From: Campylobacterales bacterium
GTDB taxonomy: Bacteria; Campylobacterota; Campylobacteria; Campylobacterales; QNZT01
Assembly: GCA_027023405.1 (NCBI GenBank)
Contig: JALVVN010000040.1
Location: forward strand, 34,809-79,288
Length of the DNA stretch: 44,480 nucleotides
Reading direction: 5' to 3'
The notes under the pieces are model-generated. The model ran no database searches. It had not been told where the DNA came from and saw only the letters and a program-made list of their open reading frames with translations. Made by a program: the position numbers and the translations under genes. This document shows, one piece after another, positions 3,782 to 44,398 of the stretch (positions within the stretch are counted from its first letter, which is position 1; each line of letters starts with the position of its first letter).

Positions 3782-4578
3782 GCTTGGAGTGAAGCGATCC
3801 AATCCTTGATCTCATCGACACTTGGAATTTCCAAATTGTTACTATTGGGATATTTATCATAATATTCTTTGAGTTGGGCATAGAGATGATAGGCATCCGC
3901 TTTTCGAAGATCTGCACGATTCTCAACACCGATTGCATAAAGCACTTCCGAAAACTCGCCACTAATCCCTTTAACTCTCATCAGATCCGCCATCGAAGCC
4001 CATGAACGAATCGTATCAAAATCGATATCAAGTTTCTGCGAAATCTTTTTCGTCGCCTTATCATCTCGTAGAAACTTCTCTGCCAAATAACAGCTATTAA
4101 AGACTCCTCTCTTTTTTAAACGCAGTGCAAAACCGGGACCGATTCCCTGAACCTCTTCAAGTTCATAGCACTCCGCATCTTTGTTACTAGAGTTCGCAGA
4201 TGCTGAGAGTAGTGCCTGTTTATGATCGTGCTCTTTTATCTCTACTTCTTCCAAACTTGCTTCCGGTTCCTCCGTGCTAGATATCTTTTCCTCACTTGTT
4301 TTCTCTAGTTCCGGCTTTGTTGAAATCTCTTGTTCTTCTAAAAGTCGATGTTTTCGTACCCAAAAATCTTTTTGGCTTTTCAATTTCTCTTCATAATCAC
4401 TGCGAAGCGTCTCGAGCTCCTCTTGACATTTTGCATCCTTCTCTTGTAACGCCTCTTTCAGTTTTTTATTTTCCTCAAGGCTGTGTTTATCTTTACCTCG
4501 CAACAACCAACCGATAATCCCACCAATTAGTCCGGCAAGCATCAAGCATGCAACGATCTCTGCTAAAATATATCCCAT
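3778..4578 (-). CDS. Membrane-anchored coiled-coil protein with DUF4332 helix-hairpin-helix domain
   Basis: 266 residues: one N-terminal membrane helix (about 5-27), a charged Glu/Lys-rich coiled coil (about 30-115), and a C-terminal DUF4332-type region. That region contains helix-hairpin-helix repeats, LEEVQGIGPGFALRLKKRGV (140-159) and DLMRVKGISGEFSEVLYAIGV (about 198-218). Such HhH repeats in other proteins bind DNA or proteins; whether this one binds DNA is not known, and the membrane anchor would hold it at the cytoplasmic face. Its ATG overlaps the stop of the upstream OmpA-type gene as TAATG, so translation is coupled and the two products probably work together, perhaps as a trans-envelope pair. 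Single-helix topology is read from hydrophobicity only. Confidence 0.72.
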   Translation of the reverse strand: MGYILAEIVACLMLAGLIGGIIGWLLRGKDKHSLEENKKLKEALQEKDAKCQEELETLRSDYEEKLKSQKDFWVRKHRLLEEQEISTKPELEKTSEEKISSTEEPEASLEEVEIKEHDHKQALLSASANSSNKDAECYELEEVQGIGPGFALRLKKRGVFNSCYLAEKFLRDDKATKKISQKLDIDFDTIRSWASMADLMRVKGISGEFSEVLYAIGVENRADLRKADAYHLYAQLKEYYDKYPNSNNLEIPSVDEIKDWIASLQA

Positions 4579-6527
4579 TATTTCATCTCCTTTAATATAA
4601 TTTCTACTCTTCTGTTTTTTGCTCTTCCTGATGCTGTTTCATTATCGGCAATCGGATGAGTCTCTCCCAATCCTTCTGCTTTAAGACGCTTAGCATCGAC
4701 ACCTTGCCGTATGAAAAATGCTTTGAGTGTCTCTGCCTTTTGACGGCTGATCTCAAGATTTTTCTCTTTTGTACCGATAGAATCGGTATATCCCTTGATA
4801 GTGACCTCTGTATTTGGACACAACTTTAAAAGTTTTGCAATCCTTTTTGCAATCTTCTGACTCGCTCGTTCAATTCCTTTGCGATTGAGCGTAAAATAAA
4901 TTTTCTCTTCAGAAAGGATACGATTAATAATATTTTGACATCGTACAAGGTGCTTTGCCGTCATTGGTGGAACACTTTTTTCTTGAAAGTCTTGTGTTTT
5001 ATCTCCCATCTCTTGAGTCTTATCTTTCACATTTTCCAGAGACTGCTTTTTCACCTTGGAACCCTCGACTTTTATTCGATATGCCTCGTAATCTTCTTGA
5101 ATCTTTTTTAATTCATCAGCGCTAACAATATGAAATTCGATGCGTCGATTGCGTGCTTTATGCTTAGCTGTGTCATTCGCAACAAGCGGTGAAGACTCAC
5201 CATATCCAAGCGCCACCACTTGGTCCGGCTTGATGCCCTTTTTGACTAAATATACTTTGACAGCATCGGCTCGTTTTTGACTCAATTTTAGATTATACCC
5301 TTCACTACCGTCTGAATCGGTGTGTCCGGCAATAACGAGATGGTTAAGATCGCAAGACGCAAAAACTTCTGCTAGTTTATTCAGTAGTGGATAGCTTTGA
5401 GATTTGATATGTGCCTTGTTGTAATCGAAATGTATCTTATGTGTTTTAAGTAAATGATTGATCTTTTCTTGACACTCTTTTTGACTCACATTGTTCATCT
5501 CTTTTTGTGCTACTTTGGGAGCCTCATTGTGTGCCTCTTTTTCGATCACTTTTGAAGCCTCTTTTTGAACCACTTTTTGAACCTCTCTTTGTACCTCTTT
5601 TTTCACAACTGGTTCACTTGTCTGATTCACTTCCTCTACATTACCTGTATGATGCGAGGCCATATCTTTTTTAGCTTCCGGCATCATTTCGGCAACAATT
5701 TTCGAGACATCAAGTGGTTTCATTTTGGGTGTTGCATGAAGCTGAGAAACGAGGTGATAGCCATGTGAGAATGTTTTGTCTATTGAACGCTCAATCCGAT
5801 CTTTTTGTGCATCACTCTCTACCTCTGCATGGAAAGTTAGATTGTGATCAAGTAAATGAAATTCACCGCTTTTTGTCTCTTTGAGCACATCCAATGCAGA
5901 CTTGAGATCTTCAACTGACACTTTCCCAATATCAGTACCTATCGTCAATTCATTGTTGACTTTCACATCACCAAACTGCTGTTTGGCATATGCGACTAAC
6001 GCTTCTGAACTCTTGAGATTGGGTACGATGCCTTTTAGATAGATAGTACCTCGTTTATCTTTGACGACATCGATTCGACTTGGCATTGTTACCACATGTT
6101 GAATCGGTTTGGGTTCTGTATGCTTCTCTTTTGAGTGGGTTATCTCTTTGGTGACATTCTCCTCTTTGGGATGCACTTTTTCAATCAAACTCTCTTTGAG
6201 TTTCGCCATTTTCGGCGTATCAGAGAGGGGCATTACCTTTGCATGGTTGATAACCTTAAAAACACCTTTGTCTAAAAGTGCCAACCTCCTTGCATCTTGA
6301 ATCGCTTCCGAACTAGGCGCATTCCCCTCCAGTATAAGCTCTCTCGTCGCAGTTAATCCCTCTCCTTTGAGCTTCACTTTTGCCCATGATGCACCATTGT
6401 CATCAAGACGATGTTGCACATCTGCTAAAATATGTTGACGAATATGATCCACCTTGTCTAAAAAACAAAAATAGGATATCGCTCCTAATAATCCTATGCC
6501 AAACAACAGTAACAACACCTTTTTCAT
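4578..6527 (-). CDS. Envelope protein with N-terminal BON-like region and two tandem OmpA domains
   Basis: 649 residues with an N-terminal hydrophobic segment (4-22) that acts as signal or anchor. Residues about 30-100 and 155-265 look like BON-type alpha/beta repeats (for example RGTIYLKGIVPN). A Lys/Glu/Val-rich linker with VQKE-type repeats runs from about 307 to 350. Two complete OmpA C-terminal peptidoglycan-binding domains follow: 355-468 (HFDYN, AGHTDSDGSEGYNLKLSQKRA, ARNRRIEF) and 530-648 (YFTLNRKG, IKGYTDSIGT, AKNRRVEI), joined by a charged helix (470-520). OmpA domains bind diaminopimelate-containing peptidoglycan; two in one chain is unusual. Upstream on the minus strand is a TATAAT-type -10 near 6563-6568 and an AAAGG ribosome site. 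Confidence 0.85.
   Translation of the reverse strand: MKKVLLLLFGIGLLGAISYFCFLDKVDHIRQHILADVQHRLDDNGASWAKVKLKGEGLTATRELILEGNAPSSEAIQDARRLALLDKGVFKVINHAKVMPLSDTPKMAKLKESLIEKVHPKEENVTKEITHSKEKHTEPKPIQHVVTMPSRIDVVKDKRGTIYLKGIVPNLKSSEALVAYAKQQFGDVKVNNELTIGTDIGKVSVEDLKSALDVLKETKSGEFHLLDHNLTFHAEVESDAQKDRIERSIDKTFSHGYHLVSQLHATPKMKPLDVSKIVAEMMPEAKKDMASHHTGNVEEVNQTSEPVVKKEVQREVQKVVQKEASKVIEKEAHNEAPKVAQKEMNNVSQKECQEKINHLLKTHKIHFDYNKAHIKSQSYPLLNKLAEVFASCDLNHLVIAGHTDSDGSEGYNLKLSQKRADAVKVYLVKKGIKPDQVVALGYGESSPLVANDTAKHKARNRRIEFHIVSADELKKIQEDYEAYRIKVEGSKVKKQSLENVKDKTQEMGDKTQDFQEKSVPPMTAKHLVRCQNIINRILSEEKIYFTLNRKGIERASQKIAKRIAKLLKLCPNTEVTIKGYTDSIGTKEKNLEISRQKAETLKAFFIRQGVDAKRLKAEGLGETHPIADNETASGRAKNRRVEIILKEMK
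5478..5609 (-). repeat. Degenerate VQKE-type linker repeat
   Basis: This stretch encodes residues 307-350 of the tandem-OmpA protein, where short units such as VVKKE, VQREV, VQKEA, IEKEA and AQKEM repeat. It is probably an extended or coiled linker between the BON-like part and the first OmpA domain. Such low-complexity units can change in length between strains. Confidence 0.6.
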
Positions 6528-14256: not shown

Positions 14257-14285
14257 TTGACAAGTCGAAAGATTTGTTATATAAT
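14257..14285 (+). promoter_or_regulatory. Consensus promoter of tRNA-Asn
   Basis: TTGACA (14257-14262), a 17-nt spacer and TATAAT (14280-14285): both hexamers are perfect. The tRNA begins 22 nt after the -10. In this phylum most promoters lack a -35 box, so the full consensus points to a strong stable-RNA promoter. Confidence 0.85.
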
Positions 14286-14307: not shown

Positions 14308-14382
14308 TCCGGATTAGCTCAGCGGTAGAGTAGGTGACTGTTAATCACTTGGTCACTGGTTCGAATCCAGTATCCGGAGCCA
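14308..14382 (+). tRNA. tRNA-Asn (GTT)
   Basis: A full cloverleaf can be drawn. Acceptor stem TCCGGAT/ATCCGGA (14308-14314, 14372-14378), D arm GCTC/GAGT, anticodon stem GGTGA/TCACT with loop CTGTTAA and anticodon GTT at 14340-14342. The T arm is ACTGG/CCAGT with loop TTCGAAT. Discriminator G is followed by an encoded CCA (14380-14382). It is a single tRNA, not part of a cluster. Confidence 0.97.
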
Positions 14383-14546: not shown

Positions 14547-14555
14547 TGCTATAAT
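14547..14555 (+). promoter_or_regulatory. Extended -10 promoter of the MotAB/ZorAB-like operon
   Basis: TGCTATAAT: a perfect extended -10, 21 nt before the ATG at 14577. A TAGGAGA ribosome site follows at about 14566. It supports 14577, not the upstream 14487, as the start. Confidence 0.65.
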
Positions 14556-14576: not shown

Positions 14577-15707
14577 ATGAGAGTAGAACAAACAAATAGT
14601 GTGATGCCCCATATTGATCTCGGACTCACCTCCAATCGTAGCTGTCCGTTGGCTTGGTTCGTTCTTGTCTCGCTTCCGGCGCTACTTTTTGGTTTGGTGC
14701 TGATGGGGTATTTGGGGATGATCTCATTTCCGGTTCATCTGCATAGTGTCGTGATGATTGGGGTGATCTTCTTCATCTATCTCATCTTTGTCAAGCACAA
14801 TGCCTACTACGCGGGGTGTACCTTTAGCAACGCGATCGACGATCTTGAGGAGTCACTCGCTCACTATATCCACAACAACCGCCTCCAACTTGCCAAAAAA
14901 ACCAAATCAAACGCACCCTTTGACACCTTTATGCAGGAGTACACACAAACCTTGCGAAATGACAACTTCGCTTCTGTAGCTTCAACTATATTTCCCACAC
15001 TCGGTATTTTGGGTACTTTTATCTCGATCGCACTGACGATGCCGAGCTTTGCAATGTCTCAAAACGGTGCGCTAGAGAGGGAGATTGCCCAACTTCTTAG
15101 TGGTGTAGGCACCGCATTTTATGTCTCGATCTACGGTATTTTTCTCTCTATTTGGTGGATCTTCTTTGAAAAGGGTGGTATGAGTCGCTTTGAGAAGCTA
15201 ATCTCGCGTATCAAAGAGAGGACAAGGCACTACTTTTGGACAAAAGAGGAGATCGAGCAGATCCATTTTGTCAAGAGTATCGAAAATTTTGAGCACCTCA
15301 ACCAAATCTTTGAGAAGATCACGGCAAATGAGTTTATCGACAATCTTCAGCATATCCTCCAACAGCGCGTCGATCTCTTTGAGAGCGTGCTCCATCATGA
15401 GCAGGAGATCCTCCAAAAGAGCACCAAACATTTCAATCAAATTATGCGCACGACTCAAGCGACAACACAAAAAAGCACGGAAATGATGGGTGCGTACGAA
15501 CAGATTGCTGACTCTCTCTCAAATATGACACATCAAGTCGATCTGAGTACACAGCTACTAAAAGATATCTCACATAAATTGACGACAAAAGAGTCCAATC
15601 TCGATCTTGCATACCAAAAGATTCAAGAGAGCTTGAAAAAACTTGAAGCTGACAGCGAACGGCTGATTCGTCGTGCCCAAGAGCCGAAAATCATTGACAA
15701 CCGGTAA
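14577..15707 (+). CDS. MotA/TolQ/ExbB-family proton-channel protein (ZorA-like)
   Basis: 376 residues from the ATG at 14577 (promoter and AGGAGA lie just upstream). Membrane helices are at about 24-48, 55-74, 131-154 and 174-198. The last two carry the MotA/ExbB signature (FPTLGILGTFISIAL and GVGTAFYVSIYGIFLSIWW). The C-terminal tail of about 175 residues is cytoplasmic and strongly heptad-like, forming a coiled coil. By family it should form the pentameric ring around a dimer of the next gene's product and use the ion motive force to rotate. The topology and tail recall ZorA of the Zorya defence motor, but the tail is much shorter than in ZorA and no zorC/D/E-like gene follows. It is separated from its partner by 6 nt. 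Confidence 0.85.
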   Translation: MRVEQTNSVMPHIDLGLTSNRSCPLAWFVLVSLPALLFGLVLMGYLGMISFPVHLHSVVMIGVIFFIYLIFVKHNAYYAGCTFSNAIDDLEESLAHYIHNNRLQLAKKTKSNAPFDTFMQEYTQTLRNDNFASVASTIFPTLGILGTFISIALTMPSFAMSQNGALEREIAQLLSGVGTAFYVSIYGIFLSIWWIFFEKGGMSRFEKLISRIKERTRHYFWTKEEIEQIHFVKSIENFEHLNQIFEKITANEFIDNLQHILQQRVDLFESVLHHEQEILQKSTKHFNQIMRTTQATTQKSTEMMGAYEQIADSLSNMTHQVDLSTQLLKDISHKLTTKESNLDLAYQKIQESLKKLEADSERLIRRAQEPKIIDNR

Positions 15708-15713
15708 ATAACA

Positions 15714-16763
15714 ATGTATCAAAACAAGCGATCAAATGACGATCAAAACTTTTGGATCTCCTATGCCGACTTGATGGCGGGACTGCTCTTTGTCTTTATC
15801 CTCATTGTGGGGGCGATCCTGATCCGTTATCTCTTTGCCAAAGCGGCTCTCGCACAAAAGATCGCCGATCTCAACCAAAGCAAAACCGCGCTCATACAGA
15901 CAAATCGTAAGCTCAATCAAAAAGATCACGCCCTGCACTCTCTCAAAAATCGTATCTCCAAACTCTCTAGTGATCTCTCTAAAGACAAGAGCAAACTCGC
16001 CCAAACCACCCAAGCGCTCAATCTCAAAAACAGCGAACTTGCGAAGCTCAAAGATCTCCTACTCGGATATGAACTCAACCAAACCAAACTTGAGAGCAAC
16101 CTCACCCAAACGGAGCAAAAATTGTCGCAAAATGAGCATATTCTTAGGCTCAAAGATGATGAAGTGGCGATGCTCTCCAAAAAGCTTATGGAAGAGTCCA
16201 AAGCACATCAAGCACTCGTTGAGGAGCTTAACATCACCAAAGTCAAGATCAAAAACCTCACCGGTATTCGCATCAAAGTAATCAAAAACCTCAAAAAAAA
16301 GCTCGGTAACTCCATCGATATCGATGCCAAAAGCGGAGCGATCCGTTTCTCCTCCAATATCCTGTTTAATAAGGGCTCCTACAAGATCAAGCCTGAAGCT
16401 AAAAAACAGCTCCAAAAGGATATCAAACGCTACATCGACGCCCTACTCCTTGATCCGAAAATCCGTGAAAATATCGATAAGATCATCATCGAAGGACATA
16501 CCGATACAGACGGTAGCTATCTCTACAATCTTGAACTCTCACAAAAAAGAGCTCTCTCGGTTTTGCAATTCATTTACAAGAATGACCCAAAAAATCGGGA
16601 TCTTTATAAACGCTACCTCAGCGCAAGCGGTCGATCTTTCTCCGATCTGATACGAGATCCTCAAGGTAGAGAAAACAAAGAGGCATCAAGGCGTATTGAG
16701 GTAAAATTTCGCATCAAAAATCAAAAGGCAATCCGCGAGTTAGAAAATTTTTTAGATCGGTAA
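15714..16763 (+). CDS. MotB/OmpA-family stator protein with long periplasmic coiled coil (ZorB-like)
   Basis: 349 residues. A short cytoplasmic N-terminus leads into one membrane helix (about 20-42). The ion-binding Asp19 is in ISYADLMAGLLFVF, the MotB/ZorB plug-helix motif. Residues about 45-200 are a long coiled coil rich in Lys, Asn, Leu and Gln. The C-terminus (about 215-340) is an OmpA/MotB peptidoglycan-binding domain (ILFNKGSYKIKPEA, IIIEGHTDTDGSYLYNLELSQKRA, EASRRIEVKF). It should anchor the motor formed with the preceding gene's product to peptidoglycan. The very long spacer between channel and wall-binding domain is unlike MotB and ZorB. Function is unknown: motility, gliding-type transport, phage defence or envelope work are all open. 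Confidence 0.86.
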   Translation: MYQNKRSNDDQNFWISYADLMAGLLFVFILIVGAILIRYLFAKAALAQKIADLNQSKTALIQTNRKLNQKDHALHSLKNRISKLSSDLSKDKSKLAQTTQALNLKNSELAKLKDLLLGYELNQTKLESNLTQTEQKLSQNEHILRLKDDEVAMLSKKLMEESKAHQALVEELNITKVKIKNLTGIRIKVIKNLKKKLGNSIDIDAKSGAIRFSSNILFNKGSYKIKPEAKKQLQKDIKRYIDALLLDPKIRENIDKIIIEGHTDTDGSYLYNLELSQKRALSVLQFIYKNDPKNRDLYKRYLSASGRSFSDLIRDPQGRENKEASRRIEVKFRIKNQKAIRELENFLDR

Positions 16764-16843: not shown

Positions 16844-17734
16844 ATGGATGCAATCGATACGATCAAGGTTTTAGGAAGCTTACTCGGAAGTGGTGGACTC
16901 TCAAAAGGGAGCGGTGGAAATGTACTGGGTAATATTTTGGGAAGTGCACTCGGACAATCAAGCCAACAACAAACCCAAGGCGGTGGAATGCTCGGTGATA
17001 TTCTTGGAAATTTGATGGGTGGCGGAAATGCCAAAACTACAACCGGCGGATCACTCGGTGATCTACTCGGTGGATTGATGAAAGGTCAAAATCAAACCCA
17101 ACAATCCCAAGGTGGCGGTTTGGGTGATTTGCTCGGATCACTCTTAAAAGGACAAAACACTCCCGCGCAAGCACCTGCAACCCAATCAAGCGGTATGGGC
17201 GACATCCTCGGAAATCTTTTGGGTGGCGGATCACAGAGTAGTAGCGGTGCGACTGCCGGTGGATTGGGCGGTCTTTTGACGGGCGCATTGGCAAAATATA
17301 TGCAATCCCAACATGCCGATCAGCCAAATCCTACACCAGAGAGCGCTGATCACCTTCCTCAAGGCGTCAATCCGCAAGATGCTATGTCACAAGCAAATAT
17401 TCTCATCAAAGCGATGATCAATGCTGCCAAAAGCGACGGACAACTCGACGAACATGAACAGCAAAAAATTCTTGCTAAACTTGGTGAACTCTCCCCTAGT
17501 GAGATCGCATTTTTGAAAAAAGAGTTTAGTGAACCACTTGATATCGATGCCTTTGTGAAAGAAGTTCCGCGAGGATTGGAGCAACAAGTCTATGCCCTAT
17601 CTCTTTCTGCTATTGATCTTGATACCAATAAAGAGGCACGCTATTTAGCTGAACTTGGTCAAAAACTTGGTATCTCTCCTGAGATGGCAAATGCGATCCA
17701 TGAACATTTAGGTGCACCAAAACTCTACGCATAA
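16844..17734 (+). CDS. DUF533 (TerB/YebE-like) protein with glycine-rich repeats
   Basis: 296 residues in two parts. Residues 1-150 are Gly/Leu/Gln-rich and contain about six imperfect copies of a unit like GGGLGDLLGSLLKGQ (near 24, 47, 68, 90, 116 and 139), separated by Gln/Ser/Thr linkers. Residues 180-295 form an all-helical TerB/DUF533 domain: ILIKAMINAAKSDGQLDEHEQQKILAKL, with acidic residues, then YALSLSAIDLDTNKEARYLAELGQKLGI. DUF533 is found in inner-membrane or soluble proteins of unknown function. The Gly repeats could form glycine-zipper-like amphipathic helices in a membrane. It follows the motor pair in the same direction after 80 nt. Confidence 0.8.
   Translation: MDAIDTIKVLGSLLGSGGLSKGSGGNVLGNILGSALGQSSQQQTQGGGMLGDILGNLMGGGNAKTTTGGSLGDLLGGLMKGQNQTQQSQGGGLGDLLGSLLKGQNTPAQAPATQSSGMGDILGNLLGGGSQSSSGATAGGLGGLLTGALAKYMQSQHADQPNPTPESADHLPQGVNPQDAMSQANILIKAMINAAKSDGQLDEHEQQKILAKLGELSPSEIAFLKKEFSEPLDIDAFVKEVPRGLEQQVYALSLSAIDLDTNKEARYLAELGQKLGISPEMANAIHEHLGAPKLYA
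16913..17290 (+). repeat. Gly/Leu-rich imperfect protein repeats
   Basis: About six copies of a 14-16 residue unit (consensus GGxLGDxLGxLxxG) spaced about 22 residues apart, within the DUF533 gene. The DNA copies are diverged, so they are old, but homologous recombination between them could change copy number. Confidence 0.65.
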
Positions 17735-26591: not shown

Positions 26592-27794
26592 ATGAAAAAG
26601 TTATTAGCGGTTTCAATTTTATTATCTTCATTGTTAGTTGCATCACAAAGACCTTATGAATTTGGTCTAACGGTAGGTGCAACATCAATTGAGAATGAAG
26701 ATAGTATCAAGCTCGATAACCCAACAGTGGGATTTAGTTTTCAAATGAACAAAACTGATGTCAAACCTCGGTTTGATATAGAATACGCATCACTCAATGA
26801 CACAGATGAGCTTTTTAGCGATCCAAGAAAAAATACTGATAGTCTATTGCGAACATCAATCAATGGAGTTTATGAATTTAATGATGACAATATGCATCGT
26901 TTGCTTCCTTATATCCTTGCTGGTGCCGGGTATGAGCGAGTCGGTCACGGAACAAAAAAGTATGCCTTTGACTCTAATCCGTTTGTACAACTTGGCGGTG
27001 GATTAAAATACAATATCAATGACAAGGTTGCTACACGCTTTGAGCTCAAAGCGCTTCAAATTGTCGGTGGTGATAAAGAGGAGAAAAATGAAATTATAGC
27101 ACTGCTTGGTCTCTCATTCCCCTTTGGTACTTTTGAGGAACCGAAGCCAGATATCACCGATAGTGACGGGGATGGCGTAATGGATGCACTCGATAAGTGT
27201 CCGAACACTCCAAAGGGTACCAAAGTAGATGGATCAGGATGTAAATTGCCTGAGATGGTCAATAAAACGGTCGTTCAAAAGGTTATCGAACCAGCTCCTA
27301 TGTCATTTGACAATGAAGAGTGCCCTATCAAAACCGATCTGCCCGATCGTGATCGAGATGGTGTAGAAGATAGTATTGATCAATGCCCCAATACCCCATG
27401 TGACTTCTCTGTCGATAAAAAAGGTTGCCCACTCAAAGCGATTCTTCGTATCCATTTCGATACAGCAAAATGGGATATCAGACCTGAATCACTACCGAAA
27501 GTGGAGAAATTTGCTGAGTTCCTTATTAAAAACAAAGGTTCACTCGTGCGCATCGAAGGACATACCGATTCACGAGGTAGTGACAACTACAACATGGTAC
27601 TCTCTAAGAAGAGAGCGGAAAGCGTAAGAAAGAAATTGATCGAATTAGGTGTCAGCCCATCACGATTAACAGCAGTAGGTAAAGGAGAAAAAGAGCCTAT
27701 CGCAACCAACAAAACAGCTGAAGGAATGGCAAAAAATAGAAGAATCGAAGTTCACTTAACCTATCCTACAGAATTACAGAAAGGGAGAAATTAG
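26592..27794 (+). CDS. OmpA/OprF-like outer membrane protein with thrombospondin type 3 repeats
   Basis: 400 residues: Sec signal (1-18), an N-terminal eight-strand OmpA-type beta barrel (about 20-180), and a linker with two thrombospondin type 3 calcium-binding motifs (DITDSDGDGVMDALDKCPNTPKGTKVDGSGC, about 187-217, and DRDRDGVEDSIDQCPNTPCDFSVDKKGC, about 252-279). A C-terminal OmpA peptidoglycan domain follows (about 283-392: ILRIHFDTAKWDIRPES, IEGHTDSRGSDNYNMVLSKKRA, AKNRRIEV). Architecture equals OprF/CadF-type porin-like proteins. It probably stabilises the envelope and may bind surfaces. The AT-rich 115 nt upstream holds the promoter; the next gene follows after 2 nt. Confidence 0.92.
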   Translation: MKKLLAVSILLSSLLVASQRPYEFGLTVGATSIENEDSIKLDNPTVGFSFQMNKTDVKPRFDIEYASLNDTDELFSDPRKNTDSLLRTSINGVYEFNDDNMHRLLPYILAGAGYERVGHGTKKYAFDSNPFVQLGGGLKYNINDKVATRFELKALQIVGGDKEEKNEIIALLGLSFPFGTFEEPKPDITDSDGDGVMDALDKCPNTPKGTKVDGSGCKLPEMVNKTVVQKVIEPAPMSFDNEECPIKTDLPDRDRDGVEDSIDQCPNTPCDFSVDKKGCPLKAILRIHFDTAKWDIRPESLPKVEKFAEFLIKNKGSLVRIEGHTDSRGSDNYNMVLSKKRAESVRKKLIELGVSPSRLTAVGKGEKEPIATNKTAEGMAKNRRIEVHLTYPTELQKGRN

Positions 27795-42604: not shown

Positions 42605-44398
42605 ATGATGAGATCATTATGGTCCGGTGTCTCCGGGCTCAAAGCACACCAAATTGCCATGGATGTAGAGGGTAACAACATCGCCAATGTCAATACAATC
42701 GGATTTAAGTACTCCCGCGCCAACTTCTCCGATATGCTCAGTCAGACCAGTAAAATCGCTACTGCCCCGCAAGGCAAATCAGGTGGTAAAAACCCACAAC
42801 AAGTCGGTCTAGGTACACAAGTCAACTCTATTACTAAAATGTTTGCGCAAGGATCGGTGCAAACAACAGGGAAAAATACCGATCTCGCTATCCAAGGAAA
42901 CGGTTTTTTTGTCTTGAGTGATGATGGTGGACGAACCTACAAATATACTAGAAACGGTGATTTTGTCTTTGATGCCAACGGTAACTTTGTGAACAATCAA
43001 GGTCTCATTGCACAAGGGTGGGTGAGAGACCCAAAAACGGGTAAAATTGACAATACTGCCCCTATCGGTGATATTATGATTCCACCAGGGTTAACCACTC
43101 CCGCGAACCCAACCTCAACACTATCACTTAAAGCAAATCTCAATTCAGGAGATCATATTGTTACCAAATCTCCTATCAGAGAGCTCGATAGCACCGATGG
43201 TTTGAAAGGAGGAAGAGATCCGGAAGAGGTTGATGATTTTAATGTGCTTTTTGATGCAGAAGGAAACTCATTTAATATCAAAAAGGGGCAAGGTGTCACC
43301 ATCTCATTTGACGGTGGTGCTACACAAAAAGATTTTGTCTATGAACCTGTATCGACTCAAATCGATCTCACCGGAGCAAGCGGTGAATATAAGTTTCGAA
43401 CAACTGAAGATCTTCGTGCTGCACTTCAACATTATATACACCAAACATCCCCTACAGCAACAGTTATTGTGAATGAAAAAGGAAAATTTGAAATTTCCAA
43501 TGCCGATCCGGCAGGTAAGGATCTCAATATTCGTGTGAGTGGAATCTCAAATGCCACCGTCGATGAAAATAAACAGCTCACAACCGTCATGAAGTCTTTT
43601 TCTGGACAACTCTCTGCAGGTAGTAATGGTATCAAAATTACACAAACTATTAATGCAGCAACCAATGCAGCTAGTATAGATGTCTTTGATTCACTCGGTA
43701 CAAAACACACAGTACGAATAGAGTTTAGAAAAGAGGGATATGTTTATGATGCAAACGGAACCAAAACCGGTGCACAATGGGCAATGAAAGTAATTGTTCC
43801 AGAGCCAGGTGAGATAGGCGGAACAATTCGTCCTAATCAAGTAGAAGGACAAATTGTTTTTAACTCTGACGGCTCATTAGCATCGTATACACCTGCTAGT
43901 ATAACATATACTGCCAACAACGGATCTGCACCCAACCAAACTATTCAACTAGACTTTGGAACAACCAATAAATTTGACGGTATAACTAGTTTTGATCGTG
44001 AATCAGCCAACTCGGGAAGAAACCAAGATGGATTTGCCGGTGGTGATCTTGATGGCATTCGTATCGATGAATCAGGTACACTTATTGGTTCCTTTACAAA
44101 TGGACGAAGTTTCGGTCTAGCACAAATTGCAATGGCAAAATTTACAAATGATATCGGTCTAGAAAGCGACGGTGGTGATGTCTTTATACAAACAGCTAAC
44201 TCTGGAGATCCGGTTATTGGTCAAGCAGCAATGGCAGGAAGAGGATTTATCCAATCGAGTGCGCTAGAGATGAGTAATGTGGATCTAAGCCGTTCTCTGA
44301 CACAACTCATCGTTGTACAAAGAGGTTTTCAAGCCAACTCAAAAACAATTACCACATCTGATCAGATGCTCAATACCCTCTTGCAACTCAAGCAATAA
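42605..44398 (+). CDS. flgE2: Flagellar hook protein, longer FlgE paralogue
   Basis: 597 residues. N-terminal D0 motif LWSGVSGLKAHQIAMDVEGNNIANVNTIGFKYSRANF and C-terminal ALEMSNVDLSRSLTQLIVVQRGFQANSKTITTSDQMLNTLLQLKQ are the FlgE/hook consensus. The middle has DLAIQGNGFFVLSD and YTRNGDFVFDANGNFVNNQG, then two large extra domains (about 185-330 and 340-450), which give a hook with more surface-exposed mass than in enteric bacteria. Flagellin-like DFGTTNKFDGITSF and the SFTNGRSFGLAQIAMAKF block are conserved in FlgE. It has its own sigma-54 promoter and AAAAGGATGT ribosome site. Symbol by analogy with the two-FlgE arrangement in this phylum. Confidence 0.9.
   Translation: MMRSLWSGVSGLKAHQIAMDVEGNNIANVNTIGFKYSRANFSDMLSQTSKIATAPQGKSGGKNPQQVGLGTQVNSITKMFAQGSVQTTGKNTDLAIQGNGFFVLSDDGGRTYKYTRNGDFVFDANGNFVNNQGLIAQGWVRDPKTGKIDNTAPIGDIMIPPGLTTPANPTSTLSLKANLNSGDHIVTKSPIRELDSTDGLKGGRDPEEVDDFNVLFDAEGNSFNIKKGQGVTISFDGGATQKDFVYEPVSTQIDLTGASGEYKFRTTEDLRAALQHYIHQTSPTATVIVNEKGKFEISNADPAGKDLNIRVSGISNATVDENKQLTTVMKSFSGQLSAGSNGIKITQTINAATNAASIDVFDSLGTKHTVRIEFRKEGYVYDANGTKTGAQWAMKVIVPEPGEIGGTIRPNQVEGQIVFNSDGSLASYTPASITYTANNGSAPNQTIQLDFGTTNKFDGITSFDRESANSGRNQDGFAGGDLDGIRIDESGTLIGSFTNGRSFGLAQIAMAKFTNDIGLESDGGDVFIQTANSGDPVIGQAAMAGRGFIQSSALEMSNVDLSRSLTQLIVVQRGFQANSKTITTSDQMLNTLLQLKQ

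Follow-up and report, generated by a model that had tools for sequence, protein, structure and literature searches.

The gene pair and its products

The locus lies on the forward strand of the window, the whole stretch of 44,480 nucleotides from a Campylobacterales bacterium that was analysed, and consists of two open reading frames, both found where a reading of the sequence alone had placed them. Gene A (14577..15707) encodes a ZorA-like channel subunit of 376 amino acids, identified through PF01618, the ZorA models of NCBIfam and PADLOC, a structure model and a fold search. Gene B (15714..16763) encodes a ZorB/MotB-type subunit of 349 amino acids, for which ZorB models, PF00691, a structure model and a fold search provide the identification. 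Upstream of gene A, an extended -10-like element (TGCTATAAT, 14547..14555, forward strand) is recognisable as a pattern in the sequence. The sequence-only reading had given the pair its own extended -10 promoter, and the element does exist; however, no recognisable -35 match accompanies it and the consensus promoter scan does not list it. A promoter of the pair's own at this position is plausible but putative.

As had been noted, no effector, flagellar, Tol, Ton or zorC-E gene is found among the genes adjoining the pair. The only flagellar gene in the window is FlgE-like (42605-44398) and lies about 26 kb away. Just upstream of the pair is a tRNA-Asn gene (GTT; 14308-14382) with a perfect sigma-70-like promoter at 14257-14285. 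The window also encodes two more OmpA-domain proteins, one of 649 amino acids with a BON domain (4578-6527) and one of 400 amino acids with a beta-barrel (26592-27794).

The product of gene A had been read as a four-helix ExbB/MotA channel with a cytoplasmic tail, and both the domain search and the structure model bear this out. MotA_ExbB (PF01618) matches residues 119-213 with 36.2 bits against a cut-off of 22.9. The AlphaFold model (pLDDT 82; A and B were each predicted as monomers) places four helices of transmembrane length at residues 23-45, 55-74, 129-154 and 164-215, together with tail helices at 223-248 and 252-368. It also contains a cytoplasmic beta-hairpin at about residues 102-111, which is of interest because a cytoplasmic beta-sheet is a mark of Zorya-type A subunits in a published comparison (PMC12505986). 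The Thr/Ser residues of the third and fourth transmembrane helices, within the motifs GTF and GTAF, are conserved across relatives.

The B subunit carries the expected stator aspartate, Asp19 (codon 15768..15770, forward strand), in its single transmembrane helix and within the motif FWISYADLMAG. This residue is nearly invariant in the family, with two lineages lacking it. Two long helices (residues 9-119 and 129-197) precede an OmpA fold in the model, and an OmpA-like peptidoglycan-binding domain is recognised at residues 217-323 (PF00691, E 1.9e-12; coding part 16362..16682, forward strand). The intervening stalk spans approximately residues 41-197 (15834..16304, forward strand), as delimited by the model helices, a heptad test and reference distances. 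Its 157 residues agree with the roughly 155 residues of coiled coil that had been claimed. The claim that the linkers of Zorya and flagellar stators are shorter is likewise upheld: in B, 240 residues separate the stator Asp from the IEGHTD motif, whereas five ZorB proteins have 112-129 and the MotB of the same genome has 141, so the long linker of B is real. The stalk model has a low-confidence break at residues 120-128, where the chain might conceivably fold back on itself.

Kinship, distribution and descent

Both subunits have their best matches among Zorya proteins. At E ≤ 0.001, A is matched in NCBIfam by Zorya-type (ZorA) models only, and ZorA models lead across the A family. For B, ZorB ranks first in NCBIfam and PADLOC, and its match to PADLOC ZorB1 (E 7.9e-64) is such that defence-finding tools can mislabel the pair. 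Because the NCBIfam ZorA/ZorB scores of the window's A and B all fall far under the curated cut-offs, the two proteins are best regarded as relatives of ZorA and ZorB rather than as recognised members. Fold searches returned ZorA structures as the best matches of A (8qyh, 8qyd and 8vvn; E 2.8e-6), with TolQ/ExbB at only about 0.05, and ZorB structures as those of B (8vvi, 8qyd and 8vvn). In a tree of the core region, which has long branches and a weakly supported deep branch (74/55), the family forms a group of its own whose neighbours are ZorA1 and ZorA2, with MotA, TolQ and ExbB separate from it. Family models, fold search, the tree with its weak deep support and co-occurrence agree in placing the pair outside the flagellar MotAB and TolQR clades, as the sequence-only reading had supposed.

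Records of Sulfurospirillum, the Arcobacter group, Sulfurimonas, Sulfuricurvum and Sulfurovum all contain the pair. In a phylum-wide search of Campylobacterota, several families matched strongly; others, among them family f13, which looks like Helicobacteraceae, matched weakly or not at all. In family f10, probably Campylobacteraceae, A is carried by 126 of 134 good genomes. Adjacent A and B genes occur at 143 loci, a few of which come from genomes counted twice because two collections contain them, and such recurrence argues against a chance event. Descent appears to have been largely vertical, apart from some exchange or ancient duplication, since the joint tree of A and B requires 11 changes of family label; at least 8 are unavoidable, and random labelling would be expected to give 38. 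No match to A was found on phage or plasmid records, and those to B were partial and confined to plasmids. PRK09039-like matches on Paracoccus plasmids were set aside as uninformative: one has a low-complexity N-terminal half and no stalk, and the other lies behind uncharacterised genes. The pair thus seems to represent a widespread, mostly vertically inherited family and not a curiosity of one genome. Its counterparts in Campylobacter jejuni are presumably Cj0598 and Cj0599, judging by synteny; no functional study of either was found in the literature, where Cj0598 is listed as of function unknown.

No third gene accompanies the pair order-wide, and no neighbouring gene cluster was counted more than 30 times among the 143 adjacent pairs. 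The DUF533 gene at 16844, which had been put forward as a possible third component, was rejected, as the neighbourhoods of about 155 loci show no relative of it beside any other pair. PpiC and FbaA genes, counted 29-30 times among the 143 loci, represent local synteny within family f10 and not order-wide partners. Another stand-alone pair, with a type II-like ZorA of 890 amino acids and a ZorB of 248 amino acids, is found in genome G033 of family f13 (L101:4806-8224). PpiC and FbaA genes follow it immediately, and its genome has no ZorE.

The distribution of the pair is independent of the flagellum. FliG is absent from 31 of 62 carriers, including all 23 of family f6, and the source genome possesses FliG and a separate flagellar MotAB. 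The pair is therefore no flagellar stator, a conclusion in which the family models concur. The source genome also encodes a second MotA/ExbB-like protein of 426 amino acids with a weak PF01618 match (L005:150-2103; G000:C7 near 60460). Its gene adjoins that of a 226-residue protein with a single transmembrane helix and a stator-like Asp, and neither was assigned to Mot, Tol or Ton by these searches.

Zorya proper was rejected for want of its effector genes, which are zorC-zorD in type I and zorE in type II, encoded with zorAB: none adjoins the pair, and the 62 carriers were searched for ZorC and ZorE. None of them yielded ZorC, whose only match came from genome G043, a control with a genuine type I Zorya locus. 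ZorE was absent from the 62 carriers except for one partial match of 119 residues in genome G220. The control locus (L102:1185-8437) is complete, with ZorA, ZorB, ZorC and ZorD, and its genome belongs to the same taxonomic order as the carriers.

Heptad register of the stalk

Across the family, between 205 and 373 residues separate the stator Asp from the OmpA domain, but this variation follows a rule. Among 53 non-redundant stalks, 43 have a length equal to 2 modulo 7, and 6 more are offset from this register by 4. An offset of 4 corresponds to a stutter, which coiled coils tolerate. One register is common to 106 of 127 distinct proteins. On the tree, stalk length changed at least 44 times and the register only 9 times, versus 35-41 changes on the same tree for the control moduli 5, 6, 8 and 9. 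Hydrophobic residues of the stalk recur with a period of 3.48-3.50 positions. The length of the A tail, used as a control with weaker anchors, gave no comparable single dominant register. Stalk length is thus quantised in heptads, changing mostly by whole seven-residue steps. Because 44 changes of length need only 9 changes of register, the rule favours one continuous in-register coiled coil that would run from the membrane to the OmpA domain, and so speaks against the break that the monomer model shows at residues 120-128.

If straight, at 0.1485 nm per residue, the stalk of the window would measure about 23 nm and those of the family about 18-43 nm. A far reach into the periplasm presumes such an extended coil, and the longest stalks may exceed an ordinary periplasm; the literature yielded no usable periplasm dimension for Campylobacterota. 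Heptad insertions in Lpp of Escherichia coli widen the periplasm and break signalling (PMC5736177). These engineered insertions suggest that the length of envelope-spanning machines may co-evolve with the periplasm, and the heptad rule makes this testable.

A proposed wall-tethered motor and its alternatives

In the mechanism proposed for Zorya, binding of ZorB to the wall opens the channel, after which the ZorA tail recruits effectors (PMC11890865). By analogy, the pair should form a wall-tethered A5B2 motor. The transmembrane helices of a B dimer would serve as the axle, with Asp19 carrying the ion, and a two-stranded coiled coil of the length estimated above would connect this axle with a pair of peptidoglycan-bound OmpA domains. 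A pentamer of A, turning around the tethered axle, would sweep its helical tail through the cytoplasm. The stalk would act as a strut, and its length, altered mostly by whole heptads, would match the spacing of inner membrane and wall in each lineage. By analogy with Lpp (PMC5736177), the motor probably engages at a wall height or tension determined by this length, whereupon the A tail would act on a cytoplasmic or membrane partner encoded elsewhere.

We assign a probability of roughly 55% to the pair being a Zorya-type A5B2 ion-driven rotary motor with a resident, non-flagellar role in the envelope. A more specific version is offered as a tentative proposal: that the pair is a core, non-defence motor of Campylobacterota, that its strut is tuned in heptads to the distance between inner membrane and wall, and that wall height or tension provides the on-switch for the motor. 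Such a motor would share an ancestor with the Zorya defence motors, and either of the two may derive from the other by recruitment. Retention of a Zorya-type motor by most genomes in several families of a major bacterial group, relatives of Campylobacter among them, would in the absence of defence genes demonstrate that these motors have a resident job beyond immunity.

The near-core and mostly vertical occurrence of the pair is unlike that of patchy defence systems. Together with the missing ZorC and the single ZorE fragment among 62 carriers, the lack of a conserved neighbour and the absence of A from phage and plasmid records, it makes an anti-phage variant of Zorya unlikely. Such a variant would sense wall damage and recruit effector nucleases encoded elsewhere in the genome, as Zorya is proposed to do through ZorB and the ZorA tail, respectively (PMC11890865). 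It draws its appeal from ZorA and ZorB being the nearest relatives and from the helical cytoplasmic tail of A.

A wall-anchored 5:2-type motor with a stiff strut could also act as an energised force transducer which, like Tol, GldLM or AglRQS, exerts force on the wall or drags inner-membrane complexes along it; cell shape, division, growth of the wall and movement over surfaces are examples of what it might serve. Presence of the pair both with and without flagella would suit this role, but an outer-membrane protein or other partner linked to the pair order-wide was not found, and we consider the explanation improbable.

The requirement for ion flow can be approached through members that have lost the stator Asp. 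Five such members were found among those examined (L085, L089, L228, L235 and L260), four of them within a single genus-level clade and the fifth outside it, and the tree indicates two losses. All five retain open reading frames for both genes, lie on long branches of the joint A and B tree, and have also changed in the TM4 Thr motif (GTAF) of A. Joint loss would be expected if both residues lined one ion path, and the pattern fits such a shared path. The genes are apparently able to persist without it, which suggests that ion flow may be dispensable for some of the function. This persistence lends something to the idea of a mainly structural tether, a wall-spacing strut in which ion-driven motion is weak or dispensable, as does the effect of Lpp insertions on the E. 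coli periplasm (PMC5736177). Elsewhere in the family, however, the stator Asp and the channel residues are almost invariant, arguing for selection on ion flow, and the exceptions sit on long branches; a mere tether is accordingly judged very unlikely. An accessory flagellar stator or a part of the flagellar-motor scaffold, which membership of the MotA/MotB superfamily, the many flagellated carriers and the large periplasmic scaffolds of Campylobacterota motors (PMC5758724) might bring to mind, can hardly be the answer and is largely refuted by the 31 carriers without FliG; the closer kinship to Zorya than to MotAB and the separate MotAB of the source genome also count against it.

Of the known systems, ZorAB of Zorya types I and II is the closest to the resident envelope motor favoured here. 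The pair shares with it the best sequence and fold relationships of both subunits, a stator motif of the FWISYADLM type, the cytoplasmic beta-hairpin, a helical cytoplasmic tail and an OmpA-like domain, and with type I also the four-helix A subunit. It differs in a stalk that is longer by about 110-130 residues, in a shorter A tail, in its near-core, vertical occurrence, and in carriers without zorC or zorE homologues beyond one fragment. Flagellar MotAB and PomAB belong to the same superfamily and likewise have a stator Asp and an OmpA-like domain. The pair departs from MotAB in the absence of any MotA model match to A at E ≤ 0.001, in the longer linker of B and in its presence in genomes without FliG. 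With TolQR and ExbBD the pair has in common the PF01618 channel fold of A, whose fold match to them is weak (E about 0.05). TolR and ExbD are not known to possess an OmpA domain or a coiled-coil stalk, whereas B ends in an OmpA domain.

GldLM/PorLM and AglRQS are ion-driven motors of the 5:2 type that work outside the flagellum, and they are likened to the pair by description. GldM spans the periplasm with folded domains and is not known to have a coiled coil ending in OmpA. AglRS has been described as a non-flagellar motor of this kind (PMC12505986). The 'peptidoglycan-binding protein' families of the PRK09039 group (NCBIfam NF006543 and others) align with B over nearly its full length, with profiles of 342-350 positions; B scores 37-67 bits against cut-offs of 305-615 and so falls below the family threshold. 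Because PRK09039 has a comparable full-length layout, the architecture of the pair is not unique. The motor class itself is already known, and what is new is a heptad-quantised stalk on a stand-alone Zorya-type motor.
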